A stretch of DNA of 64,000 nucleotides, from NCBI GenBank assembly GCA_947561395.2, contig OX387194.1, forward strand, positions 9,906,048 through 9,970,047, in the 5' to 3' direction. How positions within the stretch are numbered: position 1 is the stretch's first letter; every line of letters starts with the position of its first letter. Below the pieces are notes generated by a model. The model saw only the letters and a list, made by a program, of their open reading frames with translations. It did not search any database and was not told the DNA's origin. The position numbers were made by a program, and so were the translations under genes. The stretch comes from Buxus sempervirens (Eukaryota > Streptophyta > Magnoliopsida > Buxales > Buxaceae). Positions 3,504 to 64,000 of the stretch are shown here, in pieces.

Positions 3504-3714
3504 GGGAAGATATCGTCTATTGCCGCTTATTACTGCTATTCATGCAGCGACTATGAGATGCTACCATGTATAGCATCTCATGGTTGGATTTTTTCATCAA
3601 AAAGTTTGCTTTATATATTTTCAAAAAGGAAAAAGCTGCAACCATTTGATGTTACATGTGTCAACATCTGAATCAAGTAGCAGTGACCACTGCAATCAAA
3701 GATGATTTCAAACC
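3504..3714. mobile_element. Mutator-type MITE, copy 1
   Basis: The element is 211 bp with diverged terminal inverted repeats (GGGAAGATATCGTCTATTGCC on the left against the complement of GCAATCAAAGATGATTTC...ACC on the right). It is flanked by the 9-bp direct repeat CCAAATAAT at 3495-3503 and 3715-3723. A 9-bp target duplication is typical of Mutator-like elements. It contains internal hairpins (GAGATGCTA...TAGCATCTC) and no coding capacity. The same family recurs at 8.2, 10.7 and 14.5 kb. Confidence 0.75.
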
Positions 3715-43463: not shown

Positions 43464-43468
43464 GGTTA

Positions 43469-45753
43469 TGTGAGACATGGGAAAAAAATCACCGGCGTGA
43501 TCATCCCTCCGTCAACACACGGGCTCAACGCAAAAGTGGGAGAGTCGCCACCATTCATGATTTTGGGGTGAGAATGGACACCAAAAGATAAAAAATAAGC
43601 AAAAATAGCCAAAAGACAAATTCTAAGGTAAAAATAACCATACTTGAAAATAAAATCCAGAGATGGGTAAGGGGATTAGATTATGAACGGGGGAAGGTGT
43701 TAGGCACCCCCATTCATCCACACGAAGTGGTTGCCAAGTGTATGCTCATGCAAAAAATGAAGTAAGAAAGCTTGCTAAAAATCATGAGAAACCTTGAAAA
43801 ATGTCAAATGTATGATATCTTCACATGAGAATCCAAATGAATTTTGGATTCTCCTCTTATGTCAATATCATTTCTGGAACATTAAAAAGGTGGAAATCAA
43901 AGCACAAGTTACTCAAAACCAAGTTAAATCAAATCCGGGAAGTTTGGTAAAAAGTATGCCATTTGCCTTGAAATCATTCAAATCCAATTCTGAATTGAAC
44001 CAAACCAAATCCATTTGAAAGATTAGGGTAAATAAGAGTCTCATGCAAAATTTCACTTCATTCCGACGAAAAATCTAGGAGTTATGCTCCTTTGAAGTTG
44101 CTGCTGGGGATTTTTAAAAGTGGTAAGTGGGCAACTTTGGAAAATTGTCTAGAAAAATCCACTACATAGAAATCCACGAAATTTGGTGTGATTGAAGTCT
44201 GTATGGCCATCTTTCCAGAGAAACTAGCCTCATACAAAAATCCCTTCGGATGTGCCTTGGGTGGTCTCCCGAACAGGCCCCGAAGATCACAGATTTACCC
44301 AGAAAAGTGCAAATGAGCAGTTCTGAGTAAATCGGCTACCAATAATTCAAATGGAATCCAAAAATTATGAAACCAACTGGATTTGAAAATAGACTCAAAA
44401 AGGAGTACTCAGAAATAAAAATCACTCGAATCGGACTTAAAACGAACACATGGCGGTCCGTCGAAGTGACAAGTTCTGTACTTGAACCTGAACTGTCCAC
44501 TCAACTTCGATAGAGAGGTGTCAAAAATCCGCTAAATGCAAATTCATGAAATTTGGTGGACATAAACTAGACAGCCTCACCTTTCCTATGGTTCTGGAAT
44601 CACCCCAAAATTCATCCGGATGATGAAGTTATGGGCGTCCGAAGTAAGGGTACAGGTGCTGTCAAGCTAAGCCACTTTTGAGTAAAACCAAATCCGAAAT
44701 GTGACAAAAAGTGTGTGGTTCGTGCAAAATGAATATAAAACCTTTGAAAAACATTTAAAAACACTCCAGAATTTGATTGAGGCCATTTATTTGAGATTTA
44801 TCACAATGAATGTAATAAATCCCCAAATGTAAGCCTATTCCGCCAAAATAGTGATATGTGTGCAAGAGTGAAAAACCAAGCAAGATCAGTACAACCACAT
44901 ATCATGCATATAGATTTAACAAAATAGGTTCTAGCATAGCCTAGGGTTCCGTTCCATTATCGTTTCCCTTTGTTCTCTTTAAGATAATCAAGGGTACTTT
45001 GAATATGGAACGGTTTACAGTCAATCAAAAAGGCCTTATGCTACATAGGTTCTAGCACTAGGGTCAATCCCTAGTCTCGTTTCTCCTAGATCCGCCTTCA
45101 CGTTTTACGGCTAGGGGAGTCTTGAGATACTTTGAGCCGGGGAAGGATTTCCACACATACAAACAAGGCTTTACACTACAGAAAGGTAGAAGGAGAGATC
45201 TAGATCTAGGAATGTAAAGACAGAAAATAAAAAGAAAAGTTGAGGCTTACCTGAGTTCTGGAGGCGATTCCACAGCGGTTTTCTTCTTCTCTTGGAGTTC
45301 TTCTTTGCGAGAATTCAAAACAAGAGTTAATGGCCATTTGCTCAAGGAGGAGGCTCCTATTTATAGGCAAGGGCTAAGGTCATTGGTAGACACAAATTAA
45401 TGTCTAGAACCCCTCCAACCTAAACCCTAAGGTTATTTCCGCGATTTCCCCTCATTTAATGAGGGACATAATGGTAAAAGTGAAAAGCTCTCAGAAAACC
45501 CTAATTTTGAGCAAACTTAAGGTATCCGGTATGTCAGACTGGATAAAAAAGGGCCTTAAGGTATCCGGTACACGGTACCGGATACGCTAAGGCTCACATG
45601 TATCCGGTATGAGTATCCGGATACAGGAAGGAGTACTTGTATCCGGACTCAGTATCCGGATACAGGTAAAAGTTTATTTTCTTCAATTTCTGTGCTGGCT
45701 TTCCAGGAGATAATGATTTTTGATGATTATTTGTGTAATTTGGGGTGTCTACA
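43469..45753 (-). mobile_element. Tat/Ogre-type LTR in minus orientation (copy 2; a 3' LTR)
   Basis: 2,285 bp, from TGTAGACACC at 45753 to CTCACA at 43469 (minus strand). It has a TATAAATA box at 45358-45365, a CAG|GTAAGC donor at 45251/45250, dyads of TATCCGG type at 45521-45665, and TGGCGACTCT in U5 at 43541-43550. The left flank is GGTTA (43464-43468). The purine-rich AAAGAGGGGCAG just outside its start marks it as the 3' LTR of an element reaching to the right. It is closely similar to 46730-49030. Confidence 0.92.
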
Positions 45754-45771
45754 ACTGCCCCTCTTTGTGGG
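45754..45771 (-). promoter_or_regulatory. Polypurine tract
   Basis: On the minus strand CCCACAAAGAGGGGCAGT immediately precedes the LTR start, the expected place for plus-strand DNA priming in reverse transcription. Confidence 0.65.
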
Positions 45772-46729
45772 AGCTGCGAAGCAGTGAGCTGCAAAGAGTA
45801 GACAAGCCCAAATTGCACTCCCTTGAGCATGATTTGCTCGGTTTAATTCAATTTCTGTAGAAAACCATTTTTGAGTGGAGATTTGCCAAAAAAAACCCTC
45901 ACTTTAAGGGGGCATCTCTCCAAGAGTTCTTAAATTCCACCGAGCTCTCGTGGCTATGAAGTGGATTTTAAGCCCAAAAATAGGATTTTTTGAAAAACTG
46001 ATTTTTTATCAAACCAAGTTGAAAATTGAGTGGATATCATCCTTTTGACCAGGCACATTTCCCAAAGTTGTCTTAAATTCCACAGAGCTCTCGTGGCTGT
46101 GAGGTGGACTTCAAGACAAAAATAGGATTTTGAGAAAATAGTAAGAATTATAGCACAAGTTTGCTTTTTCTTTTTTTTTTCTTTTTTCCTCTTTTTTTTC
46201 TTTTCTTTTCTTTTTTTTTCTTTTTTTTTTCTTCTTTTTCTTTTCTTCTTTTTCTCTATTTTTCCCTGTTTTTTTCTCTATTTTTCTGTTTTTTTTCTAT
46301 TTTTTTTCTTTTTTTTTCTTTGGTATCCGGTAGGTATATCCGGATAATCCAGGGTCTGCGGGTATCCGGCCTGAGTATCCGGATCCCGCAGGTTTACTTA
46401 AGTCGCGCGCGACCGCGACTTTTCGTTTCTTTTCTTCTTGCTCCGATTACTCAGACCGGCCATAGACCTTCGTCCTCGACTCCGACGATTCGTCCTGCTT
46501 CTCCGGCGATCTCCAGCAACTCCGGCGACGCCTATTGCTGCCGGCGACAACCTGTAGCTCCGGCGACTTCCATCGTTGCCCCTTCTTGGCCGTGGTCGAG
46601 CCCTAGCTCGATTTTTTCATTTTCTTGTGATTTCTCAGCTTGGCATTAGGGGGTTCGGTTCTGGATACTTGTCTCTTGTCTTCCACTTGCAATTAGGCAC
46701 TTGATTTCTCCATTGTTCGTCCAGGTTAG
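45772..46729 (-). mobile_element. Internal DNA next to the 3' LTR
   Basis: Non-coding. It holds two related blocks (TTAAATTCCACCGAGCTCTCGTGGC and a second copy near 46075), a long T-rich tract 46160-46320, a TATCCGG dyad group at 46323-46384, and a GC-richer part (46400-46600) with TCCGGCGA repeats. The long open frame in the T-rich tract is a composition artefact. Confidence 0.6.
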
Positions 46730-49030
46730 TGTAGACACCCCAAATTGCACAAACAATCATCAAAAATCATTATCTCCTGGAAAGCCAGCACAGAATTTGC
46801 AGAAAATAAACTTTTACCTGTATCCGGATTGAGTATCCGGATACAAGTACTCTTTCCCGTATCCGGATACTCATACCGGATACATGTGAGCCTTAGCGTA
46901 TCCGGTACCATGTACCGGATACCTTAAGGCCCTTTGTTATCCGGTCTGACATACCGGATACCTTAAGTTTGCTCAAAATTAGGGTTTTCCGAGAGCTTTT
47001 CACCTTTACCATCATGTCCCTCATTAAATGAGGGGAAATCGCGGAAATAACCTTAGGGTTTAGGTTGGAGGGGTTCTAGACATTAATTTGTGTCTACCAA
47101 TGACCTTAGCCCTTGCCTATAAATAGGAGCCTCCTCTTTGAGCAAAAGAATTAACTCTTGTTTTGAATTCTCGCAAAGAAGAACTCCAAAAGAAGAAGAA
47201 AACCGCTGTGGAATCACCTCCAGAACTCAGGTAAGCCTCAACTTTTCTTTTTATTTTCTGTCTTTACATTCCTAGATCTAGATCTCTTCTTCTACCTTTC
47301 TGTAGTGTAAAGCCTTGTTTGTGTGTGTGGAAATCCTTCCCCGGCTCAAAGTATCTCAAGACTCCCCTAGCCGTAAAACGTGAAGGCGGATCTAGGAGAA
47401 ACGAGACTGGGGATTGACCCTAGTGCTAGAACCCATGTAGCATAAGGCCTTTTTGATTGATTGAAAACCGTTCTATAATCAAAGTACCCTTGATTATTTC
47501 GAAGATCCGTGTTTAACGGGGAGAGAGAACAGAGGGAAACGATAATGGAACGGAACCCTAGGCTATGCTAGAACCTATCTCGTTGAATCTATATGCATGT
47601 TGTATTGATCTTGCTGGGTTTTTCACTCTTGCACACATATCACTATTTTTGCGGGATAGGCTCATACTTGGGGTTTATTGCATTTATTGTGATAAATCTC
47701 AAATAAATGGCCTCAATCGAATTCTGGAGTATCTTAAAATGTTTTTCAAAAGGTTTTGGATTCATCTCACACAGATCACACACATTTTATTAATTTTCGG
47801 ATTTGAATTTCTTCAAAAGTGGCCTAACTTGACAGCACCTGTACCCTTACTTCGGACGCCCATAACTTCATCATCCGGATGAATTTTGGGGTGATTCCAG
47901 AACCATGGGAAAGGTGAGGCTGTCTAGTTTATGTCCACCAAATTTCATGAATTTTCATCTAGTGGATTTTTGACACCTCTCTGTCGAAGTTAAGTGGACA
48001 GTTCAGGTTCAAGTACAGAACTTGTCACTTCGACGGACCGCCATGTGTTCGTTTTAAGTCCGATTCGAGTGATTTTTGTTTCTGAGTACTCCTTCATGAG
48101 TCTATTTTCAAATCCAGTTGGTTTCATAATTTTTGGATTCCATTTGAATTATTGGTAGCCGATTTACTCAGAACTGCTCATTTGCACTTTTCTGGGTAAA
48201 TCTGTGATCTTCGGGGCCTGTTCGGGAGACCACCCAAGGCACATCGGAAGGGATTTTTGTATGAGGCTAGTTTCTGTTGAAAGATGGCCATACAGACTTC
48301 AATCACACCAAATTTCGTGGATTTCTATGTAGTGGATTTTTCTACACAATTTTCCAAAGTTGCCCACTTACCACTTTTAAAAATCCCCAACAGCAACTTC
48401 AAAGGAGCATAACTCCTAGATTTTTCATCGGAATGAAGTGAAATTTTGCATGAAACTCTTATTTACCCTAATCTTTCAAATGGATTTGGTTGGGTTCAAT
48501 TTAATATTGGATTTGAATGATTTTAAGGCAAATGGCATGCTTTTTAACCAAACTTCCCGGATTTGATTTAACTTGGGTTTAAGCAACTTGAGATTTGGAT
48601 TTCTATCTTTTGAGATATTCCAGAAATGATATTGACATAAGAGAGGATCTAAAATCCATTTAGATCTTCATGTGAATATATCATACATTTGTTCCTTTTT
48701 CAAGGCTTTTTCATGATTTTTTAGCAAGCTTCTTATTTTCTTTTTAGCATGAACATACACTTGGCAACCACTTCGTGTGGATGAATGGGGGTGCCTAACA
48801 CCTTCCCCCGTTCATAATCTAATCCCCTTACCCATCTCTGGATTTGATTTTCAAGTAGGATTATTTTTATCCTAGAATTTGTCTTTTAGCTATTTTTGCT
48901 ACTTTTGAACTCTTTGGTGTCCATTCTCACCCCAAAATCATGAATGGTGGCGACTCTCCCACTTTTGCGTTGAGCCCGTGTGTTGACGGAGGGATGATCA
49001 TCTTCCGGTGATTTTTTCCCATGTCTCACA
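46730..49030 (+). mobile_element. Tat/Ogre-type LTR in plus orientation with PBS (copy 3)
   Basis: 2,301 bp, TGTAGACACCCC...CATGTCTCACA. It has dyads at 46820-46962, TATAAATA at 47118-47125, a CAG|GTAAGC donor at 47230/47231 and TGGCGACTCT at 48948-48957. It is preceded by GTTAG (46725-46729). It lies head to head with copy 2, about 1 kb apart. The primer-binding site follows, so this is a 5' LTR of a plus-strand element or a nested piece of one. Confidence 0.92.
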
Positions 49031-49032
49031 AC

Positions 49033-49050
49033 TGGCGACTCTGCTGGGGA
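49033..49050 (+). promoter_or_regulatory. Primer-binding site
   Basis: TGGCGACTCTGCTGGGGA lies two bases after the LTR end. Its TGG start fits the CCA end of a tRNA. From memory this resembles the arginine-tRNA-type site of Ogre/Tat elements. Confidence 0.8.
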
Positions 49051-50400
49051 CTTGTGGATTTAAGCCAATTTTGGGTGTTTTGTTCATGCTTTCTTTACTT
49101 GTGAATGCTTGCTATTTTGTTTACTTTATTGGTGTATTCTAAATCTGATTGAGATGTTTTTAAATTTTACATGGATAAAGGCATGCGTATATGGTTGTAT
49201 TATGCTTAGGATCATGTTTATGGCCTTATCTTGTTGTGCATGCCTACTTGTTTTTTTGTACCTTGTTTTAGGAGGTTTTTAGTGCCATGTTTTGAGCATG
49301 AAAATAATGAGCAAAAATCTGTAAATACAGTAGCCATTAGGATGGTTTTCAAGCATGTTTTCCCTCATTAAAACACCAATATACCATGTCAAGTAGTTGC
49401 TAAACTTTTAGGCATTAATTTGGGGTATAAAGGATGCACTTGTGGGCATGAGAAATCTGAAAATTTTAGTGCATATTTCTGGAGATTTTAAAGCATTTTT
49501 TACCTCATTGAAACACTTTTGAACCATGCCAAGTAAGTGCTAAAAATTTAGGCTTCAATTTGGGGTAAATGGTACACTTTGAGCATGAAAAAGAGCATGA
49601 AATCTGGAATTTTAGGAATGCTTTTGGGGTTTCAAGCATGCTTACATGAGTTAATTGTTGTTTGTACAAATAACATGTTTTGTATACCACTTTTTGGGCA
49701 TGTAATATTTTTGTGCATATTTGGTGCTTGCTTGCTTATATTTAGTTTCATTATTTTGTCATATATGCCTTGGCTTGAAAATGAATGCATGGCTACGAAA
49801 AAGAGTGACAAGGGGCTGGGACGTTGTGAATGTTACCACAATTTTAAATTGCACTTGAGCACTTGAAACAATTTGCACAGCCTACCCATTACCTATTAGG
49901 AAGTTGAACCATGAATGTGTGTAGCTTGGCGCACCGAGGTCGTGACTTCGGAAAGCGAAAGTGAAAACATTTACCTTAGAATTTGGGTCAATGATGTGAT
50001 GACAATGGGATCTGTGATTCGATTCCGGGCATCACTAGACTTGAGTTCTAAGTTGCCAATTAAGCCAAAACCCAAAAACCATACGCTTGAAGGTGGAGAA
50101 ACACGTTTTCGGCTAAAAGCACACAATTGCGTTTGGGGAATTGGGTGTAAATGTGGGAAGGCCGTTTGCATGTTTTACAGGCCAAGGTATAATGTGAATA
50201 CCATATTGAATGAAGGTAATACAAGGTGGCAAGGTAAAGCCATGTTCTCTTCCTAAATTTGGGGAATTTTGCAAGTATGATGTCCAAGCCCAATTTGGGG
50301 CAAGTTTTGAAGGTCAAATTAAGGTGAACATCAATTGGGAATGAAAAAAAACTAATCGGGTGAAAAAATGAGTCAAAAAGGGCCATTTTGGGAGGTGCCA
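49051..50400 (+). mobile_element. Leader region after the PBS
   Basis: AT-rich, with two loosely repeated blocks near 49340-49460 and 49500-49620 (CATTAAAACAC / CATTGAAACAC, then AAATTTTAGGC). No long coding frame is convincing. Confidence 0.55.
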
Positions 50401-50409
50401 CCTGAATCA

Positions 50410-52540
50410 TTTTCTTAGTATCCCATCCTTCAGAGCTGATCGTCCGCTCATCTTCGCCATGATGGAGAGGTATTTCCCAGAGACTCAGTCGTTCCATCTG
50501 CCGGACGTGGAGCTGGGGATCCGCCCCTCCGATTTTGTGATGATTACTGGCATTCCTCTGACTGGGCGGACCATTGTCCTGGAGCGGCCTTCTGCGGAGG
50601 ACATCGGCCTCCTTCTGGGATATCAGGCCCTGCCACCTACTGCTTGGGATGGGCGGAGTGGCCGGCTCTCCATTAGTTGGCTACGGGAGAGTCTGGCTCG
50701 ACATTTTGAGGGGAGACACAGGACTGTGGCTGTGGAGGATGCAGCCTTTGCGCCGATCTTCCGGCATGTATTCCTGCTGATGTTGGGGAGCTGCTTCTTC
50801 CCGGAGGATACGACTGGCGTCAGTCCGCTCTTTTTGGACGCCTTGAGATATTTCCATCAGACCCGCCAGCTAGCATGGGGTCGGCTGATCTATGGGACCA
50901 TCTTGGCCGGGCTGTGCCGAGCGGTTCGAGGCTTAGCATCTCCGAGAGGTGATGGAGTCAGCAGCCGGTTCTTCTGGCAGATTTTACAGGTATTGAACTT
51001 CCCTTCTCTGGTTTAATTTTTTTTTAGGTTTTATCTTTTCCTGACTGGTTTTTCTTTTGCTAGGTGTTCATGTACACCTACATGACTTTCTTCCGCCCCT
51101 CCCCGGTACCTGAGGTTGCAGATTTTCCAGTGGCTTTGCGATGGTCGGCCCAGGTCCGGGATGCTGATAGGAGTCAGCCTCGTACTGCCCGGGTGCACTT
51201 AGACCGTGCCCGCCGATCTGATGTAAGTCCTTTATTTTTTTTCTTTTATTTCCTTTCCTGTCTCTTGACTGTATCTGACCACTTTGCTTCTTTGCAGCTC
51301 ATTCTATCCCGTCCAGATGACGTGGATGTCGGAGTTGCCCGTGAGATGGCAGTACAGGATGCTTTTGAGAGAGATCTCCGACGTCAGCCCTACCAGTGCT
51401 TCCTTGGGAGGCTTGGTAGGGTGATGTACTTGGGAGAGCGCCTGTACTTCCAGCACACTGGTGCACTTCGCATCCCCATCCCTCCTCCTGCTGTGGGTCC
51501 CGATACTCTCCTTCCTGGCTTCGACGTGGATCAGTTCGATCATTTCCTGGATGCAGAGGGGCTCACAGTAATCGGAGATTATGACGAGTGGTTCCAGGGA
51601 GTATCTATCGGATGCTTGATGGATCGACCCACTCGTGCCGGGGTGACAGAGATTGGCGGGATCCGTATCCGGATCCACGAGGACACGGTAAGCCTTGTAC
51701 TCTTCCCCTTTTTATCCACTTTTCCTTCCTTATGCATTTCTGACCACGCTTCTGTTCTTGTTGGCAGGTACACGAGCTGAACTCCATTCGGGACCGGTTT
51801 AAGAGTCAGCGGGCCGCGATCGATGATATGATCGCTGAGCACGATGCGGTCGTGGCCCAGCGGGATGCCCGGATCAGGGAGCTGGAGTCCCTAGTTGCTG
51901 AGCTTAAGGCTGGACAGGTATCTGGCCTTCTCATATTTTTATTTCTTTCATTTTCCTGTTTCTGCTATTCTGATGTGCTTGTTTGACTTGTGCAGGGCCC
52001 AGCCCATGATCAGGATGCTGCTTTCGAGCCTGACTTTCTTGCCCCTGATCCATCCCCCATTTGGGCTACTGCTCCTGTGGATGTCCCAGCTGCTGATCCT
52101 GGTGATGCTCCAGTGACGGTTCCTGAGCCCGAGGAGGTCCCTGCTGCCGACCCAGTGGATCCTGATCCCATAGTGCCTGCTGGTATGTTTTCCTTAGTTT
52201 CTTCTCTTTTATTCATTTTAGTATCCCAACTCTTGATATCTTCCCATTTGGTACAGATATTTCTGATCCTGGCCCTTCTTCTGATGCCGGGCCTTCTGGA
52301 GCTGCGGGAGCAGAGCCTGCTATGGCTGAGGGTCCAGTTGAGCCCGTACCTGCTGGGCCAGAGGTTTCCTCCCCAGATTCTGCTTCTGCTCTACCCCCGG
52401 ACATCGAGGAGTATTGCCTGGAGTATCAGCTTCAGCAGGTGGTGGGTCGGCATCCTCGTCATGCAGCCGAGCGTATTCTTGCCTACTCTAGGGGTAGAGC
52501 GCTCCGAGGGAGAGGTCGTAGGGATGATCCTGCACAGTAG
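50410..52540 (+). mobile_element. Plant-mobile-domain-like gene carried by the element (gene 1)
   Basis: An extra gene in Tat-type retrotransposon DNA. About six exon-like blocks are separated by short introns of roughly 70-110 bases with GT-AG ends. Blocks lie near 50.4-50.99, 51.06-51.22, 51.30-51.69, 51.77-51.92, 52.00-52.18 and 52.26-52.54 kb. The first encodes the plant mobile domain type opening (RADRPLI.., RYFPETQSFHLPDVELGI, DFVMITGIPLTG). Then come a middle domain, a coiled coil (VVAQRDARIRELESLVAEL) and a Pro/Asp/Ala-rich linker ending in an Arg-rich RGRALRGRGRR tail. The start is uncertain: the domain frame is open upstream of the ATG at 50459. It lies antisense to gag-pol. The domain family is shared with host genes. 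Function is unknown. Confidence 0.7.
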
Positions 52541-52753
52541 CAGTAGATTAGGATTTTTCCTTTTCATGTATTGATCTTATCATTCCTTGTACAAAAACTT
52601 GAATATATATATGAAAAAAAATTTTTATTCATTCTATCTTGTCTTGCACATCTTTTGTTCTCAATTTTATGCAATTATGGCATGTAAGCAGGTGAAACAG
52701 GTAAAAAATTCGGATTTTTTTCATCCTTAGCTCTTTTTTGCATTTTTTCTCGG

Positions 52754-52895
52754 TATCCGGTCTGACATACCGGATACATTGATTGGTCTTTGTATCCGGT
52801 ATGACATACCGGATACTCGTGCCATCTTTTGTATCCGGTATACTTATCCGGATATGCACAAAGCCTTTTGTATCCGGTCTGAGTTACCAGATACG
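52754..52895. repeat. TATCCGG/CCGGATA dyad array between the two extra genes
   Basis: Four hairpin-like units (TATCCGGT...ACCGGATA with 7-base centres such as CTGACAT) lie here. The first is identical over more than 20 bases to a unit in the LTR at about 46939-46961. The array lies upstream of gene 2. Confidence 0.85.
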
Positions 52896-53023
52896 TTAAA
52901 AGATGATATAAATGCAACCAGCCTCGGGATTTGAGCATTTTTTACGAGTTTTTGAGTTTAGAAACCCCCTTTTTCGCCTTTTTCTTCCTCCTCTTGAGTT
53001 CTAGCTTGCTCCCGTCACATCCA

Positions 53024-54717
53024 ATGGAATCCGGATCATCTTCTGCCCCATTATTGTCTGTCCACACTGCCTCCCCTGCAAAACAGCCTTTTAGATCAAA
53101 ACCCCCAAATCTCACTAGGTACAACCCTGTGGATTCATTTTACACAAGGTGGGTTAACTCTATGACTCTAGATGAGGAGAGGAGATGGGGTTCTACTAAT
53201 CTAGGCCATACCCTGCTCATTCCCAAGGTTCCCTTCAGGTGGGAGATTATAGAGGCCATGATTGGTCATTGGGTTCCTGACCTCAACTTGTTCCGTTTTG
53301 GGAACCATGAGATGACCCCAACCATTGAGGAGGTGGAAACCATCCTGGGCCTGAGGTTTGATGAGAAGGTGATGAATCCACCTCTAAGGCTCAGTTACAA
53401 GAAGGAAGCTTCTACTTTTTTGGGCATAGGGAAGAAGGACTTGGGGGATTCTGACACCCTTTTGACCCTATCTAAGGCTTTTTTGACTGAGAAGCTTTTG
53501 AGGGGAGAAGATAAGGAGGCCCGATTCAATGCGTTGACCCTGATAGTGGTCAACCAGTTGCTTTTCCCACGGGAGGATGACGAGGTGGACTTGGCCTTGA
53601 TTTCCGTGATATGCCAGGTTAGGGAGCGGGAGAGGTTGGCCCCTATGATTTTAGCTGGGATATATCAGGCCTTAACCGACTGCTACAACAGGAAGTCAAA
53701 ACGCTTCCTAGCATGTGCCCAGATCTTGCAGGTAAAAAATTTCTTTTCTTTTTTTTTTTTCCTTGCTTTTTGGCTTTCTTTTTGCCCTTTTTTTTTTTTT
53801 TTTTTACAATGTGCTGACATATCTCCCTTCCTTTGCAGCTTTGGCTACTTGATCATTTGAGCCAGATTGAAGAGATCAATCGACACTTCTTCACGAGTCT
53901 AAAAGTCCCTTTGTTGATGAGCAACAGGGGGTGCCCCGATATTCCAGGGGGCAAACAGGGCTGGTTCACTTTCTTGGGCTTGCTTCAGGATGACCAGGTG
54001 AGATGGCCTGGTATTTATCAGCCTAATGCGGAGACAGTGATTAGCTTCCGAGACCGCAACTTTCTGATTCTGGCTGGCCTGAGGCATGCAGTGCTTTATC
54101 TTCCTCTGCGGGTCCTTCGTCAGTTCCGTGCGACCCAGGGGATTATCATCCCATTTGGATATGAGGATCGTCTTGGGCCCCTTTCTATGAAGCTGAATGC
54201 CTGGTTGATGAAGGAGTGGTCCTATGTCCGCTTCATGCATGGTCCAGTCTTCTCGGAAGCCCATGTGAAGGATTATCTCTTCTGGATCTTGGAACAGATA
54301 CAGACCCAGGCTCCGGTACCCGAAGATCCTCCTGTAGTCTTGGCTCCCACCTATGAGGACATTCTAGAGTCTGAGCGGGCTTCTCATAAGCGGCTTCAGC
54401 AGATATGGGTCCGGGAGGCCCAGGAGCTCAGGATACAAGGCGCTTATCTGGAGAGGCAGCTTGAGGAGCAGATCTCACGTCGTATTGCCGTGGAAGAGAA
54501 GCTGGAGGAGCAGAGGCAGGCCTGTTGCTTCGAGGTCCGTATGATTCGGCAGAAGTACCAGGCTACTTTGGCCAGCCTTAGGAGTATGAGGATCAAGCAG
54601 GCCCTTTCAGATGAGGTCATTTCCTTCCTGAGTGATCCCGCTGCAGAGGGGGCTTCAGGAGTTATTGCAGCTCAGGCAGCTCGGATTCGAGAGCTTGAGG
54701 AGCGGCTAGGAGACTAG
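53024..54717 (+). mobile_element. Plant-mobile-domain/DUF7745-like gene carried by the element (gene 2)
   Basis: Two exon-like blocks (53024-53730 and 53839-54717) are joined by one GT-AG intron. The first begins MESGSSSAPLLS. It carries the family's ..FYTRWVNSMT.., HWVPDLNLFRFGNHEMTPTI and EEVETILGL signature, seen in plant proteins with DUF7745 or mobile-domain folds. The second continues with LWLLDHLSQI, QVRWPGIYQP and a long C-terminal coiled coil (ERQLEEQISRRIAVEEKLEE.., ending RIRELEERLGD). The frame looks whole. It is tail to tail with gag-pol. Function is unknown; both extra genes end in coiled coils, which suggests they may pair. Confidence 0.7.
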
Positions 54718-55649
54718 CTTTATTTCCTGCACATTTTTCATACCTTTGTACAAAATTGAACTCCAATAGTGGAAATACAAAGAATTTAATTCAAAATAAA
54801 GTTTTTATATTATTGGCCTCAGAACGCTCAGATGCTTGTAAAAACAAAGGTTTTATGAAGAGTATTTGATTTATCATCACTGACCAAAGTATAATTTTTC
54901 CTTTTTATATTTTTTTTGTATTTTTTTGAAATTTGGTCCATGCACTTAATCACCTATAATTAAAGGAATTAGAACCAGGTTAAATGATGAAAAGGGTAGT
55001 CCACAAAATACTGAGGGATCAGAACCGTCCATCTTAGGACCTTTAGAGTCATCCCCAACTGCCACAACTGCCCCATTCTGCTCATGCCAACTTTGCTTAA
55101 GGCTCAGATCCCCATGATCAACTTAACCTCTGATTTTCTTTCATTTTTTTTTCTTTTTGCCTTTTTGCCAATATTGCCCCTAGCGCCAGTTACGGTTTTC
55201 ACTAGGCCCGGCTTCTGAATTCCGTCATCACCCATCTTACTTTGATATTTGAATGAACAAGCTAAGATCACTGAGGGCTTAAAAATAGGACGAAATAAAG
55301 GCTAGGCTCAGTTTATGAAAGAAAGGGTATTAAAGGCCCAAAATTTTTCAAGTGCGGAGATAGGTCAACCGGATTTACAGTCTTGATAAATTTACCCATT
55401 TTTCCCCAAATTGCATTTTTCTGCATCTTTTTTTTTTCACACTTGGCTTTCATTTGCCATTTCCATTGCTTTTCCTCTCTTTTTCTTTTTCTTTCCTTAC
55501 TTTTGCCCCAATTGATTTTGCCCCAATTTGACTGTAAATCCGGTTTGGGTTGATCAAAGAAACGAACCGGCTCAACTTGGCTAGACTAGGGATTGAAATT
55601 TTGAAGGAAGTAAAGAAAAATGGCCTCGGATCATTTCCTAGAAATATTC
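54718..55649. other. Junction between the extra genes and pol
   Basis: Non-coding. On the minus strand a purine-rich run (AAGGAAAGAAAAAGAAAAAG, about 55470-55500) resembles a second polypurine tract. The text TTTGCCCCAATT is repeated nearby. No LTR is present here, so the two coding units share one internal region. Confidence 0.5.
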
Positions 55650-58600
55650 ACTCAAGGAAAATACCTTTTTACTGCATCAGAGTTAATGGGCTCAGGAAAA
55701 TCTGACCCATCTATTTCTGCTAAGATGAGTGCTCCCCCTGATAGGACTTTCTTGACGACATATGGGCCTTCCCAATTGGGCTTGAACTTACCACGATGGT
55801 CTTCCAAAAATGGTAGAATTTTCTTTAGCACTAAGTTTCCTTCTTGGAAAGTTCTGGGCCTCACTTTCTTATTGTAAGCCCGGGCCATTCTCTTCTGGTA
55901 CAACTGTCCATGGCAAAGCGCTTTCAACCGCTTTTCTTCTATCAGGTTGAGTTGATCATGTCTCGACTGGACCCATTCGGCTTCTTCTAGTTCTGCTTCC
56001 ATGAGCACTCGGAGTGAGGGGATCTCTACTTCCACGGGCAAGACTGCCTCCATCCCATAGACTAGGGAGTACGGGGTTGCCCCAGTTGAAGTCCGGATCG
56101 AGGTTCTGTAGGCATGTAGAGCAAGTGGTAGCATTTCATGCCAATCTTTATAACTCACTACCATCTTCTGAATGATTTTCTTTATATTCTTGTTTGCTGC
56201 TTCCACTGCCCCATTCATCTTTGGCCTGTACGGAGCTGACTTATGGTGGGTGATCTGAAATTGCTCACACATTTTCTTCATGTCCTTGCTCTTAATATTC
56301 GAAGCATTGTCTGATACTATGGCACTTGGCAGTCCATAGCGACAAATGATGTTGTGCTTCAAAAATTTCATAACATGGTTGCTTGTGATATTTGCATATG
56401 ATACTGCTTCCACCCACTTAGTGAAATAATCAATTGCCACCAAGATGAATCTGTGCCCGTTTGATGCCTTAGGGGAGATCATGCCGATGACATCTATGCC
56501 CCACATAGAGAAGGGCCAGGGTGATGTCATGTTGTGCAGCTCACCTGGGGGTGCATGCTTATTATCTGCATATACCTGACATTGGTGGCACCTCCTGACA
56601 TGTACACAGCAATCATGCTCCATAGTCGTCCAGTAGTATCCCAGCCTCAGGATCTTCTTAGCCAGCATGTGCCCACTCATATGGGGCCCACAGACTCCTC
56701 CATGTACGGTCTCGATCAGCCTTTCTGATTCAGCCTTGACAACACATCTGAGCAGAATGTCGTTATGTGACCTCTTGTACACATGTCCACCACTTAGAAG
56801 AAATTGACCAGCCAATCTCTGTATTGTCCTCTTCTCAGTAGCAGTGGCATTTTCTGGCAAACTCCGATTATTCAAGAAATTCTTGATATCTTGGAACCAT
56901 GGTGCTTCTTCTTCTGGTGCTCCCTCTAGAACGAGACAGTAAGCCGGTTCATCTCTAACCTCAATTTCCAGCGGTCTGATGTCTACTCCTTCTGGTATGC
57001 TGACCATTGAAGCCAAGGTTGCTAGAGCATCCGCAAACTGATTCTTGGCCCTTGGCATATAGTTGAAGGAAATTCGAGTGAAATTTGTGCTTATTTCTTC
57101 CAAATACTGGTGATAGGGGATCAATTTGTGATCCTTAGTTTTTCACTCACCAGTTGTTTGGAAGATGATAAGTCTCGAATCCCCGTATACGTCCAGTTCC
57201 TCTACTCCATGATCCATGGCTGCTTGCAATCCAATTATGCATGCTTCATATTCTGCTATGTTATTAGTGCACTGGAATCTCAGCTTTACTGCAATTGGGA
57301 TATGTGAACCATCTGGTTTAACCAAGACTGCCCCTATTCCGTTCCCATTCATATTGGCGGCCCCATCAAAGAACATCTGCCAAGAACCCTCACTGTCCTC
57401 CTCTTCAGTGTACAGAATTGCCTCATCTGGGAAGTTGGTCTTCAAGGGTTGATATTCTGGCAAAGGATGTGCAGCCAGGTGATCAGCTATGGCTTGACCC
57501 CTGATCGCCTTCTGGGTGATGTACGTGAGGTCAAATTCGGACAGTAGTAGTTGCCACTTTGCCGTCCTGCCAGTCAGTGCCGGTTTCTCAAATAAATACT
57601 TCAGCGGGTCCATCCGGGATATCAATAGTGTGGAGTGACTAAAGAAATAATGCCTTAGCCTCTGAGTGGCCCACACTAGAGCACAGCAAGTCTTTTCCAA
57701 TGGTGAGTATTTGGCTTCATATTCTGTGAATTTTTTACTCAGATAGTAAATTGCCCTTTCTTTTCTACCAGTCTCATCATGTTGTCCCAAGACACATCCC
57801 ATTGACGTTTCCAACAATGACAAGTACAGGATCAGTGGTCTTCTGGAGTTGGTGGCACTAGTACCGGCGGGTTCAGTAAATACTTCTTTATTGTATCAAA
57901 TGCCTGCTGGCAGTCCTCATTCCAGACCGTCGGGTTATCTTTCCTCAAAAGTTTGAAAATTGGTTCACAGATAGCAGTGAGCTGTGCTATGAACCGGCTT
58001 ATGTATTGAATCCTTCCAAGAAAGCCACGAACCTCCTTCTCAGTTCTGGGTGCTGGCATTTCAATTATGGCCTTGGCTTTTGCCGGGTCAATTTCAATTC
58101 CTCTTCGGCTCACTATAAACCCCAGTAACTTCCCTGATGTAGCCCCAAAGACGCATTTAGCCGGGTTAAGCTGTAGACTGTACTTCCTGAGCCGATCAAA
58201 CACTTTCTTCAGATTGATCAAGTGGTCCTCCTCTTTGCATGATTTGGCGATCATATCGTCCACGTAGACCTCCATTTCCTTATGGATCATGTCATGAAAT
58301 AGTGCAGCCATGGCCCGCTGATATGTCGCCCCGGCATTCTTGAGCCCGAATGGCATGACTGTATAGTGGAATGTGTCCTAAGGTGTGATAAATGCCGTTT
58401 TTTCTTGATCCTCCTTTGCCATCTTGATCTGATTATATCCCGAGAAACCATCCATGAAGGAAAACAGGCTATGTACCGCAGTATTATCGACCAGAATGTC
58501 GATGTGTGGAAGCGGAAAATCGTCCTTTGGGCTTGCCCTGTTCAAGTCTCTATAGTCCACGCACATTCGGACCTTCCCGTCCTTCTTTGGTACCGGCACT

Positions 58601-61600
58601 ATGTTCGCGAGCCACTCTGGGTACGTAGAGACTGCCAAAAATCCAGCTTGGAACTGCTTGACCACTTCGTCCTTGACCTTCAGAGTCCACTCAGGTTTCA
58701 ATCTTCTCAGCTTCTGCTTGATTGGCTTAACCCCTGGCAAAATTGGCAACTTGTGCACCACCATGTCTGTGTCCAACCCCGGCATGTCCCGATATGACCA
58801 AGCAAACACATCCTTGTAATCTGCCAAGAACTGTGACATTTCATTTTTCTGCACATCAGACAAGCATGACCCGATTTTCACAATTTTTGGGTCATCTTCA
58901 GTCCCAAGGTTTATGGATATGGTCTCTTCAATATTAGGTTGGACCCCCTTTTCATGACGTTCCAATTGGTATTCAATTTCTTTTGGAACGTCTTCTTCTT
59001 CGACCTCGGTCTCTTCTTCGACCCCCATGAGGTCAAAGTCGAGCTCAAGGTCGAAGTCATATTCAACCTGGTCCAATTCGGTCTGATTATGTGGTTCATA
59101 AGTGGTGTGGACCTTTTTGAAAAATTTAAATTTGCTAGAAAAAATAGAAAAATCTTTTTGGGTTTTTTGTGGGCCTTCTAAACATAATTCCCCTGAAGAC
59201 GAAGGCCCATTAGAACCTTCAGGGAAATGGCAATCCACTATTGGAGTTTTTTTTTGGAAGCCGCGTCAGTTTGCCGAACTAACGCTGCTTCAAAGGTAAG
59301 GGGAATTTCCTCCCAATTGTTCAGTACAAAATTTTGGGGAGCAGGGGAAATAGGGAAAGCCCGCTCCTCAAGCCCAGCATCCGATGCCATCATCACCGAG
59401 TGGGTACTGCCCTTTTCTGCTGCGGGGCCCAGTTCAGAAATTACCTTGTCTGGAACCTTTACTGCGGCCCAGTCAATAAACGGCAGTTCCATGTCTGCCC
59501 CTGTCTTTTCGCCTTCAGTCATGGCGAAGAAGGCACCCACATCCTCCGAAAAGTCCACCTGCTGCTCGGGCTGTGGCCCAGGCCCATCTGCTGCTCCCAG
59601 TATTGGAGATGGGTTATAGGGTTGTAGGGCTGAAACAATAGGCTTCTGAAATGGGTTGATATTGTAGTAGGGGGGCTTGGACTGGTCCATGGGAGGAGAA
59701 ATTTGGATTATATAGGAGGGTTTTGGAAAGTTCACCCTCAGATGCGGGAGTTTTCCTTTGCTTCTGCTCTCCCCTTCTTCGTGATTCATTCTCCTCCAGC
59801 CTCTGGGCTTGAAGCCCAACCCTACCTTGGGGATCAGTTTCTTAGCCGTGATTGGCTCTACCATCCCCTGCAGATTGATCCTCAGGCCTTTCCCTGGGTG
59901 AAAGTGGTATTTCTCTATCACTTTCTTGACCATTTTTTCTGCAGTGGTCCCTTTTTCCTTCTTTTCCTCACACCCCCCAGGTATGTAATTTACCGCCTCA
60001 AATTGAAATGAGTGGAATGCAATCTTGTCAACAGTCAAGTCCACATTGATTAATGGTACATCAGGTGACACGATGGGCGGCACCAAGTTTTCGGCTAGGA
60101 CTGTTATCACCCTTTGCCCTCTTATGTACTTCACTCTTTGGTGGAGCGTAGATGGTATTGCCCTAGCCGAATGTATCCACGGCCTTCCTAGGAGCAGATT
60201 GAAGGCTGCGGGTATAACCATCACTTCAAATGTGATGTTAAAGATATTCGGCCCAATTGTGACCGGCAGTTCAATCTCCCCTAGGGAGTGGGTCTTGGAG
60301 CTATCAAAAGCCCTCACTATCCGCCCATTTTGTTTGATCCTTGACTGGTCCAGACCCAGCTTGGTAAAAGTGATTAACGGGCAAACGTTTAACGCCGACC
60401 CGTTGTCAATTAAAACCCGTGCAATCATGCAGCCCTTACAAAGCACAGTGATGTGCAAAGGGTCCACATGATAACACCCACCTGGGCTGATCTCACCCTC
60501 TGAGAAACTTATCACGTTGTGTGACAAGATTTGACCAACCATTTTACCAAGCTGGTCTGGATCAATTGTCTGGGATACGTGTGCACTCTGTAGCACCCTT
60601 AACAATGCATCCCTATGCTTTTCAGAATTCAGCAAAAGGCCCAGTATTGAAATCTGGGCCGGGACCTTGTTTAACTGATCCACAAGATTGAATTCACTCT
60701 TTTTTATTATTTTTATGAGGTCGGCTGCCTCATTTTCTGCACCCTGGGGAGTGTCTTCTCCCACTTTATTTTTTCCCTTATGTTTTCTTTTTTCTTCATT
60801 TTCTATTTTTTCTTTTTCTACTTCTGTCTCTTTTTCTTTCTCTTCACCCCCTTCACATCTCCCTGACCTCGTCATGAGGTTCACCTCCTCCTGGTTCGGG
60901 TTTCTAACCGCTGGAACCGTAGCTGTGATTCCCTCGCTGTAATTCCATGGTACAGCGGCCTCAGAATAGGCTAATTTAGGGATGTTAACCACTAATGGCT
61001 GGAGTTTGGACCGGGATGTATGGGCCGGTTTAGGGATAGTATGGGCTGGCTGCACATTTACAACCAAAGGTTGAAGTTTGGAATTTGTGGGGACAGAAGA
61101 AGTGATGGAAGCAGTGGTGGGGTCAAGATTGATGACCAGTGGAGCCTTAGACGGCTTGGATGGGGAGCAAATGGATGGACTGCAATTGAAGACCAATGGG
61201 GGCCTTGCAGTATTCATCTGGGCCATGAGTGAAGAGACCCAGTTTAGAGAGGAACTTATGTCCTCAGCAGCAAGATTATTATTTTTTTGGGAGACCATGT
61301 TGATCTCCTCTTCTTCCTCTTCTGGGAAAAATCGGACCTGGACTGTAGTCCCCACAGGTGCTATAAGCTGAGATGGGTCAAAGGCCCTTCTCGTGGTGGA
61401 TATGGCAGTGATGGAGTTGGATGGGCCTGCCCCATTGTGGTAAAGCAGAGGGTTCTGCCCAATATCATTCCCGGACGGGGCCGGTGCAGCAGTGTTGAAC
61501 ACCAAGGCCTTCTGGTCCAACAGGTCCTGGACTGCATGCTTCAATACCCAACAGTTATCTGTAGAGTGCCCTGGTGCACCCATGTGGAAGTCACAGGTGA

Positions 61601-63041
61601 CGGATGTGTCAAAATTTCTTCCCTTAGTGGCATTTGGGTTAGGCTCCTTCAGAGTCAAGTATTCCCCTTTCAGCAGGTTTGGCAGTAGTTGGGACAGCGA
61701 TATGGGTAGAGGGGTGAAAACCCGGTTCTTCCTTGCTGCGAACCAGGCATCCCGCTCCTCCTTAGTAAAGGTCCTCCTTGTGTTAGCTGGCACAGAGGGA
61801 GAGAAGTTGACATTCAGCGGGGTCTGGTACGACTGCTGGGCCTGCTGGGCCTGTTGGGGTGCCGAGATGTTGACGTGAAGCGGCTTCTTGGCTGGAGGAG
61901 CCTGGACTAGGTTCACTTCCCCTTCTTTTCGGGCCCCTGTTTTCTTGAACCCAGTTCCCTTCTTTTGGGCCATGGAGGCCGAGGAATCAGACTGTCCAGT
62001 CAAAGTAGAGTAGTCTATCAGCCTTCCTGACCTGACCCCTTCCTCAATCCGGTCCGCCACTTGTACTAGGGCTGCAAAGTTGGTGGTGATCTGGCCCACC
62101 AGATGGTTGTAAAAAGGCTGCCCCAGTGTGCCCATGAATGTGGAGATCATCTCCGGCTCTTGCATAGGTGGCCTGACCTGGGAGGCGGCCTCTCTCCATC
62201 TCTTGGCGTACTGCCGTACCGGTTCATCTTTCCCCTTGGTCATCCTCATCATGTCGTACCGGTCCGGCACGATCTCCGAGTTGAACTTGTACTGGTCCAA
62301 GAAAGCATCGGCCAAGTCCTTCCACCTTCTAATCCTTCCATGGTCCACTGTAGTGAACCACCGAAGGGCTGACCCGGTCAGACTCCTTTGGAAGAGCTGG
62401 ATCAGTATGCCATCATCCCGGCCAAATTGGCATAGGGCCCCACAGTATAATTTGAGATGGCTCAATGGGCAACCCGTGCCATCAAATTTATCGAAGTCTG
62501 GGCACCTGAACTTAGCCGGTAGACAGACGTCCGGGTACATGCATAGGTCCTCGAAGGTGGTGCCTGCATGGCTGCCTCCCCCCTTCACTTCCTTCAGCTC
62601 TGCCTGGATCCTCTCTATCCTGAGCAGCATTTTCTTTTCCATCTCATCTCGGGCCTTTTCTTTTTCCAGCTCTTTCTCAGACTCCACTGTATTTTCCCTG
62701 ATCAGAATGGGCTCAGGGACTGGTTCAGAAATGGGCTCAGGCATGGGCTGAGCTGGAGGCGGTATGTAGGCCTGAGGTGGCGGTGCCGGATGAGAAGTCG
62801 ACGCCTGATTTTGGGCTTGGGCCTGCTGGGCCTGAGCCGCCAGTAAGTCTCCCAGCATTTTGGCCAGACCGGCCACTTGCTCCTGCAGTTGAGTAAAGTC
62901 CTGAGCGGCGACAGTAGCTTGGGCTTGGTTCTCTTCAGTATTCATGGCTCTTGCTTTGGATCTGGTCACGGGAGCAATGACTGCAAATAAGTGTACCTGG
63001 GTTGAAAGTAAATGTACCTGAGATAAAAAAAACAAAGACAC
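55650..63041 (-). mobile_element. gag-pol of a Tat-type Ty3/Gypsy retrotransposon
   Basis: Minus strand, in order: gag (about 61-63 kb; capsid motifs such as FDKFDGTGCPLSHLKLYC and ALRWFTTVD); aspartic protease (about 60.4 kb, LIDNGSALNVCP); reverse transcriptase (about 57.9-58.9 kb, with YVDDMI); a canonical RNase H with a second RNase H after it (about 57.2-57.8 kb, FFDGAANMNGNGIGAVL and YGDSRLI); and integrase (about 55.7-57.1 kb, HHCC finger, DNASN, and ending in a chromatin-type tail). Two RNase H modules are a Tat hallmark. The coding is in several blocks and looks broken, about three or four times. Some block changes may be the family's known splicing or read-through. The long gag-protease block is still open, so it is not ancient. 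Confidence 0.92.
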
Positions 63042-63119: not shown

Positions 63120-64000
63120 TTGTTTTTTTTTTTTTTTTTTGTTTTTTGTTGTTTTGATTTTGTGTTGGAATATTCTAGGGCTTCCAAGGGTCCCAAATTT
63201 TTTGATTTGATTGATAAAAATAACCAAACAAGGTTTTCATGGAATATTCTAGGGCTTCCAAGGGTCCCAATTTTTTTTGATTTGATTGATAAAAATAACC
63301 AACCAAGGTTTTCATGGAATATTCTAGGGCTTCCAAGGGTCCCAAAATTTTTTTTTTTTTGATTTGATTTGATTGATAAAAATAACCAACCAAAGGTGTC
63401 TTGGAATATTCTAGGGCTTCCAAGTATCCCACAAATGTTTTGATTTGATTGATAAAAATAACCAACCAAAGGTGTCTTGGAATATTCTAGGGCTTCTAAG
63501 TATCCCACAAATGTTTTGATTTGATTGATAAAAATAACCAACCAAAGGTGTCTTGGAATATTCTAGGGCTTCCAAGTGTCCCACTTTTTTTGATTTGATT
63601 GATAAAAATAACCAACCAAGGTTTTCATTTTTTTTTATTTGATTGATAAAAATAACCAACCAAGGTTTTCATGGAATATTCTAGGGCTTCCAAGTGTCCC
63701 ACCTTTTTTGATTTGATTGATAAAAATAACCAACCAAGGTTTTCATTTTTTTTTATTTGATTTGATTGATAAAAATAACCAACCAAGGTTTTCATGGAAT
63801 ATTCTAGGGCTTCCAAGTGTCCCACTTTTTTTGATTTGATTGATAAAAATAACCAACCAAGGTTTTCATTTTTTTTTTTGATTTGATTGATAAAAATAAC
63901 CAACCAAGGTTTTCATGGAATATTCTAGGGCTTCCAAGTGTCCCACTTTTTTTGATTTGATTGATAAAAATAACCAACCAAGGTTTTCATTTTTTTTTTT
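63120..64000 (-). repeat. Minisatellite in the leader upstream of gag
   Basis: About twelve units share GATTTGATTGATAAAAATAACC. Long units (about 75 bp) add ..GGTTTTCATGGAATATTCTAG and GGCTTCCAAGTGTCCCAC. Short units (about 45 bp) lack that part. Poly-T length varies between units. The array continues past the window edge. Because the unit has few stops, it gives repeated open frames on the minus strand that are not separate genes. Confidence 0.9.

Follow-up and report, generated by a model that had tools for sequence, protein, structure and literature searches.

How can a long terminal repeat (LTR) retrotransposon carry intron-bearing genes and keep their introns from one round of retrotransposition to the next? 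The question is raised by a 64,000-nucleotide stretch of Buxus sempervirens DNA (contig OX387194.1, positions 9,906,048 to 9,970,047, forward strand; 'the window'), which lies on C21 of a 676-Mb assembly in 247 contigs (GCA_947561395.2) to which every genome-wide count below refers. The right part of the window is a large LTR retrotransposon with gag-pol on the − strand (63041 to 55652), which can be assigned to the Tat lineage of Ty3/gypsy as an element of ~23 kb whose two gene sets face each other. A sequence-only reading of 50410–63041 had placed two plant-mobile-domain-like genes with at least six short GT-AG introns opposite gag-pol, and had argued that introns so placed are invisible to splicing of the genomic RNA. 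As a whole that interpretation is partly supported, and its argument on introns holds as far as DNA alone can carry it. The explanation that we favour, and hold to be probable in its entirety, is that the two antisense genes keep their introns through successive cycles, have promoters of their own, and belong to an element whose promoters are linked by arrays of a dyad motif.

The two genes lie on the + strand, in the stretch that separates the integrase from the 3′ LTR; gene A encodes a plant mobile domain (PMD) protein and gene B a DUF7745/PMD protein. Seven exons and six coding introns make up gene A in complete copies, and two exons and one intron make up gene B (the gene A exons are named A1, A2 and A4–A8 in our scripts, A3 having once been used for the window part of A2). 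In the window, gene A is 5′-truncated and retains five introns, which with that of gene B gives the six GT-AG introns that had been proposed. The genes are thus present in the region described as beginning at 50410, yet that start lies near a breakpoint: gene A is cut at 50387 and its 5′ part is missing, while all 15 of the other aligned copies carry the additional part (exon 1, an intron and the start of exon 2). The features of the two genes in the window are as follows.

50387–50989, + strand: gene A exon 2, 5′-truncated, first part of the plant mobile domain
50990–51063, + strand: gene A intron 2, GT-AG
51064–51222, + strand: gene A exon 3 (A4)
51223–51297, + strand: gene A intron 3, GT-AG
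51298–51687, + strand: gene A exon 4 (A5)
51688–51767, + strand: gene A intron 4, GT-AG
51768–51917, + strand: gene A exon 5 (A6)
51918–51995, + strand: gene A intron 5, GT-AG
51996–52182, + strand: gene A exon 6 (A7)
52183–52256, + strand: gene A intron 6, phase 1, GT-AG
52257–52541, + strand: gene A last exon (A8), RG-rich end and stop
53024–53731, + strand: gene B exon 1, DUF7745/PMD
53732–53838, + strand: gene B intron, GT-AG
53839–54717, + strand: gene B exon 2

The likeness to plant mobile domains was borne out by Pfam, with PMD above the cut-off in both genes: the matches were 5.2e-10 for PMD in gene A, and 7.5e-18 for DUF7745 and 8.6e-13 for PMD in gene B, and the PF10536 bit scores ranged from 39.5 to 48.1 (gene A) and from 45.5 to 48.6 (gene B) at a curated cut-off of 34.9. 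The PMD match is limited to the first half of the profile; the remainder lies beyond the intron and gave no match. Since a comparison by hhalign of the profiles of gene A exon 2 and gene B exon 1 returned a probability of 7% and no support for kinship, the relationship of A and B is indicated by their shared Pfam family alone. Gene A has an RG-rich N-terminus (at the start of exon 2), and its exon 5 gave weak coiled-coil matches only, under the curated Pfam cut-offs. Directly before its start codon stands an acceptor-like TGTAG that is conserved though most of the preceding kilobase is unalignable, which suggests a leader intron upstream of the start codon. This 5′-untranslated region (5′-UTR) with its putative leader intron could not be aligned between copies (L009, L017, L019, L022 and L026) whose exons are ~90% identical; either ancient recombining alleles or very fast turnover might account for it.

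Antisense introns and retrotransposition

The search for other copies that the sequence-only reading had proposed showed that many copies combine gag-pol with the antisense genes. From this DNA search the best 35 of 4048 candidates were scored, 27 of them being near-full-length copies at 89–100% identity. The antisense region was aligned in 16 copies (the window, L002–L008 and L029–L036), but the splice-site and motif counts and the ratios of non-synonymous to synonymous substitution (dN/dS) leave out L005, which is nearly identical to L004, its neighbour in tandem. In the 15 aligned copies so counted, donors were GT in 104 of 104 introns and acceptors AG in 99 of 104. Intron positions, which the same reading had wanted compared, were conserved between aligned copies and did not vary at random, and intron lengths fell into two or three classes modulo 3 while the exons keep frame.

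Genome-wide, unspliced and spliced forms were counted for two introns. For the gene B intron, a 24-letter word at the donor (two mismatches at most) was found unspliced at 740 sites, while its spliced junction was found at none; for gene A intron 4, the corresponding word gave 586 unspliced sites and no spliced junction. Reversed-pattern controls returned 0 in all four junction and donor searches. A processed copy that had been suspected at C12:28158893 from an open frame of 622 aa was dismissed, given the absence of any spliced junction in the genome-wide search.

Target-site duplications (GGTTA, CCCGT and CTCTC) were found for three elements, namely those whose two outer LTR ends could be paired; the other fetched elements stand in tandem or have no matchable outer LTR pair. 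The LTR pairs of the three are 99.5, 97.4 and 99.1% identical, while LTRs of different elements are ~94% identical. Because each has its own duplication and an LTR pair closer (97.4–99.5%) than LTRs are between elements, the three are read as independent retrotransposition events, with the introns kept in each. The three duplications, together with the ratios of 740:0 and 586:0 unspliced to spliced, strongly support the proposal that antisense introns survive retrotransposition since the genomic RNA would not be spliceable there.

The course of events may be pictured as follows. While gag-pol would be transcribed from the 5′ LTR, A and B, placed between integrase and 3′ LTR, would be read off the + strand, each under a separate promoter. 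The genomic RNA (− strand) would carry the A/B introns as their complement, in which GT-AG reads CT-AC, and the spliceosome would see no sites; reverse transcription would then copy the introns whole, and the seven coding introns would persist over repeated cycles. Any mRNA of A or B would be without the primer-binding site (PBS) and LTR ends and could not feed spliced copies back. Both the strand dependence of splicing signals and the requirements of LTR replication are established knowledge, and they predict the counts observed.

An intron is known from another Tat element, Ogre, in which it lies in gag-pol in sense and is spliced from part of the transcripts (PMC6317226); that of Ogre is thus sense, whereas those described here are antisense. 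Retention of introns by antisense placement was not found in the available sections of PMC5418596 and PMC6317226, and no statement that antisense placement allows it was found in the literature searched, whose coverage did not extend to Steinbauerova 2011.

The same mechanism can be combined with a different account of the antisense layout. The genes may derive from a PMD gene of the host, or from an ancient PMD transposon, that was captured in reverse by chance, the orientation being a by-product and the introns persisting unremoved. Such passive tolerance predicts the same 740:0, and we give it somewhat less than even weight. In gene B the exon ends where the PMD match has reached profile position 180, and 24 of 117 PMD matches in the genome stop at profile positions 177–191, so an intron near there may predate the element; the other 93 run past the intron place, and among 118 DUF7745 matches 59 stop near it and 59 run past. 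Taken alone, passive tolerance leaves unexplained a constraint on A and B as strong as that on pol, and the LTR-type motif arrays before both genes (see below). Several of the PMD frames that run past the intron place are paired ~3.4 kb apart.

Strand order and coding constraint

The orientation of the A/B cassette relative to gag-pol was uniform wherever it could be read. The best 87 of 12311 integrase candidates and the best 150 of 5673 gene B candidates were scored; gene B exon 1 was listed within 8 kb of 20 of the 87 integrase matches, in all 20 on the opposite strand and on the 3′ side of the integrase, at 1.89–1.98 kb. On C1–C3, a listed A or B donor was near 14 of 26 integrase matches, always on the opposite strand, and none was listed for the other 12. 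Among the first 100 exact integrase words on C1, 39 had a listed A/B donor on the 3′ side (all opposite, 0 on the same strand), and for 61 no donor was listed, the donor lists consisting of exact matches only. Within C1:3.4–21.4 Mb, 8 of 10 B donors and 14 of 20 A donors are followed downstream by an exact PBS, always on the opposite strand and never on the same one, the remainder being without an exact PBS in range. Moreover, five further C1 elements, read from coordinates alone, have the gene order of the window element: the integrase word follows the PBS by 9.1–9.8 kb on the same strand; all five have an exact A donor, on the opposite strand, and four of them an exact B donor. A nested insertion of two separate transposons was rejected as the origin of this layout, order and strand being the same in the window and the five C1 elements and the strands opposite wherever both parts were listed.

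The coding regions of the cassette are under constraint. Exon length is a multiple of 3 in 14–16 of 16 alignment rows for each of A1, A2, A4, A5, A6, B1 and B2 (the A1 row of the window, 5′-truncated, contains no letters) and in 14 of 16 for A8; the length of A7, despite a range of 145–244, leaves a remainder of 1 on division by 3 in 15 of 16. In-frame dN/dS was 0.10 (A1), 0.07 (A2), 0.04 (A4), 0.11 (A5), 0.25 (A6), 0.46 (A7) and 0.35 (A8) in gene A, and 0.11 (B1) and 0.15 (B2) in gene B, below 0.5 for all nine exons; in the two other frames of each exon it ranged from 0.55 to 10.5 and exceeded 1 in 16 of 18. In a comparison over four or five copies, dN/dS was 0.01–0.12 for cassette exons (A4, A5, B1, B2 and part of A2) and 0.05–0.18 for six pieces of gag-pol, placing the cassette in the same range. 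These values indicate that proteins A and B are under strong selection.

Two other accounts of the genes can be judged on these data. GT-AG pairs might have been over-read in T-rich DNA, and the introns are indeed short and T-rich; low dN/dS confined to the coding frame, sites conserved in the 15 aligned copies and free intron lengths refute such chance gene models, to which we attach a negligible probability. Alternatively, antisense transcription might itself be the function, + strand RNA pairing with the genomic RNA so that small interfering RNA (siRNA) limits transposition, with the proteins secondary. Limitation by siRNA is offered as one possibility for antisense open reading frames (ORFs) by Vicient and Casacuberta 2020 (PMC7264820). 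Selection on the protein, as seen in the in-frame exon lengths and in dN/dS of 0.04–0.15 in six of the nine exons, renders this improbable as the main function.

Both PMD genes in Gypsy elements and antisense extra ORFs in Tat elements are already known. For the latter, which the sequence-only reading had named as known, support is found in PMC7264820. Antisense additional ORFs (aORF-3R, or eORF-3′R) are described for maize Grande (gene23, which has its own promoter), Silene Retand and rice RIRE2 (PMC7264820). Like these, the present element has its additional coding region between pol and the 3′ LTR on the opposite strand, and does so in many copies; unlike the account given in that review, it has two genes with seven coding introns between them, and its dyad arrays recur in the LTR. 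The review urges looking for antisense and spliced transcripts, and the word 'intron' is absent from the portion of its text available. PMD genes of Gypsy elements are described as PMD-A1 and PMD-A2 (Ikeda 2017, PMC5418596) and also in PMC9289625, and PMD eORFs in 57% of Ogre elements (REXdb, PMC6317226); the likeness to the present element lies in a PMD domain within a Gypsy element.

Dyad arrays and a possible regulatory circuit

The predicted promoter regions of the element are marked by a dyad, TATCCGG-N9-CCGGATA, found at 28,399 places in the genome as against 5 for the reversed-pattern control (the pattern is self-complementary and is therefore counted on both strands at each place). In the window, 32 of 35 exact half-sites (TATCCGG or CCGGATA) lie in clusters of the element and three are single. 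Clusters occur in the LTR and upstream of each of the two genes, and the leader of the C10 copy has them as well, ~1.5 kb past the PBS. Those of the LTR and of gene B are placed as follows.

45523–45662, no strand: dyad array (TATCCGG / CCGGATA) within the LTR
52754–52877, no strand: dyad array before gene B, 7–9 half-sites, in 16 of 16 copies
52907–52912, + strand: TATAAA before gene B, following the array in 16 of 16 copies

Half-sites are most often spaced by 16 (inverted) or 39 (direct). Over 284 distinct half-site contexts, the information content of the partner arm is 0.8–1.2 bits per position, and the mean of those positions that do not exceed 0.35 bits is 0.16. Before gene B, half-sites vary by 0.9–1.5% between copies and linkers by 11–13%, sites being defined in one copy and compared in the others, with each of 15 copies serving in turn to define them. 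In all five C1 elements dyads are found before the PBS, after the PBS, before gene B and in the 3′ LTR.

A similar arrangement is known from VANDAL21, whose VANC21 protein binds a motif that recurs in arrays within non-coding tandem repeats (PMC5735166). VANDAL/VANC and the present element are alike in having short-motif arrays in non-coding repeats, partly upstream of element genes, the arrays here being likewise tandem and located in non-coding parts. The VANC21 motifs share one orientation, whereas the motif here is inverted; and, unlike the VANDAL DNA transposons, this is an LTR element with PMD/DUF7745 proteins by Pfam, so the likeness would be one of working only. Because the arrays resemble those of the VANC21 motif, it is likely that one factor acts on all promoters of the element; such a factor, on the dyad arrays, would couple the LTR promoter to the antisense promoters.

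What this factor might be can be approached from two sides. Tentatively, and with rather more doubt than confidence, we suggest that the A/B proteins or a complex of them recognise the arrays of the LTR and leader as well as those at their own promoters, and turn on gag-pol and themselves or shield both from silencing. They would act in the nucleus as an LTR-element counterpart of VANC, and antisense placement would let them stay intron-bearing. PMDs of elements have been suggested to counter silencing (review PMC8616336). In Arabidopsis, the PMD proteins MAIN, MAIL1 and PP7L are linked to a 'DOWN' promoter motif (PMC7156037); they are similar in being PMD proteins needed for expression from motif-bearing promoters and differ in being host genes rather than element-borne. 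From the other side, the dyad may be bound by a transcription factor of the host, which the element would exploit without encoding the binder itself, and here we regard the case as evenly balanced. TATCC/GGATA is a core of some plant MYB sites, and dyad arrays seemingly also occur in other elements (C1:142047 and C1:5920009). Against it, 28,399 places, far above the number of cassette copies, fit an element-driven spread, a figure that does not by itself identify the binder. The arrays on C1 (142047–142186 and 5920009–5921196) have other spacers, and the motif seems older or wider than this element family. A shared dyad of this kind was not found in the literature searched, where no search by the dyad letters was made.

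If the circuit through A and B exists, an LTR retrotransposon would possess its own sequence-specific regulatory circuit. The large counts show that a retroelement can hold complex intron-bearing genes when they are antisense, which bears on why accessory genes of Tat elements are often antisense. The motif arrays also offer a concrete target for the role of PMD proteins, both in elements and in MAIN and MAIL1, the related host proteins that take part in silencing.

Several observations weigh against the favoured explanation. Transcription of the + strand and splicing of the A/B mRNAs are predictions from the DNA. Five of the 104 acceptors are lost, one copy each. At least one in-frame stop is found in the A/B exons of 13 of 16 copies, leaving three stop-free copies with the truncated window copy among them; such stops are expected for decaying insertions, yet the copies that bear them give no proof of function. 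The integrase word occurs at 2064 sites genome-wide, more than the cassette donors, and some elements seem to be without genes A and B; a seven-unit tandem of 15.3-kb units on C1 has no A/B donor listed. Before gene A, an exact dyad pair is present in only three of the five C1 elements and a TATA-like box in two of five copies read, and the 5′-UTR and putative leader intron of that gene are those that cannot be aligned.

Element architecture and the rearranged copy in the window

The remaining features of the window element are listed below.

43469–45753, − strand: 3′ LTR (LTR pair with 11 differences in 2285, 99.5% identical)
45754–46549, + strand: remnant of the predicted gene A antisense promoter region adjoining the 3′ LTR, half-sites at 46324–46382
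46730–50386, + strand: inverted foreign LTR (46730–49030), PBS (49033–49051) and leader
55652–57124, − strand: integrase (Pfam)
57143–57823, − strand: RNase H and second RNase H-like domain, RVT_3 (Pfam)
57832–59238, − strand: reverse transcriptase, two frames in the window copy (Pfam)
59238–63041, − strand: long frame at the place of gag and protease, by position
63122–63998, − strand: 5′ leader tandem repeats
L015:1714 and L015:1735–4019: PBS and 5′ LTR, both outside the window

On the − strand, the Pfam order is reverse transcriptase (RT), RNase H, the second RNase H-like RVT_3 and integrase. The second RNase H between RNase H and integrase, a Tat/Ogre-like feature (PMC6317226), is thus present (57143–57823), as is another, the PMD extra ORF. 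Ogre-like Tat elements are characterised by a PBS complementary to tRNA-Arg. In the present element the PBS, TGGCGACTCTGCTGGGGAC, sits two bases after the LTR, and TGGCGACTCYRCTGGGGAC is found at 3557 genome sites. Complete elements on C6 and C12 measure 23,084 and 23,057 bases. Integrase matches lie in an open frame of 1198–1222 aa, with pol apart from gag, in 58 of the 87 scored and in a frame of >2400 aa in three; in the window, the gag-side and integrase frames are offset by one base, and the listed frames meet at 59238, with no gap like the intron-like one of ~274 bp by which the two gag-pol ORFs of Ogre are set apart. The leader repeats before gag have two unit sizes, ~75 and ~121 bases.

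The window copy is rearranged, since an inverted foreign LTR, PBS and leader adjoin 50387 on the left, and this despite outer LTRs that are 99.5% identical and GGTTA on both flanks (5 bp at 43464–43468, repeated after the 5′ LTR at L015:4020). The insert at 46730–50386 replaces the 5′ end of gene A in the window copy only, of the copies read; its inverted LTR is 93% identical to the element's own LTRs, and it is joined straight to gene A exon 2. The inverted segment starts precisely at an LTR end, inside a recently inserted element, and may have originated as a chimera formed at reverse transcription or by nested insertion followed by deletion.

The pol of a diverged relative (L021:8096–10000, L022:1–516 and L024:3599–8777) is interrupted by the C6 element (CCCGT); this relative is 80–84% identical in the RT and integrase regions, and no A/B exon match was found in the 8 kb left of its integrase. 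Head-to-tail tandem units of ~20 kb were seen at C10:13980031 and 14000241 (two) and at C19:24848431, 24868379 and 24888254 (three). At C1:8468435–8560370, seven units that share the same integrase word, without a listed A/B donor, stand ~15.32 kb apart; this tandem is possibly a derivative without the cassette, ~4.9 kb shorter than the 20-kb units.

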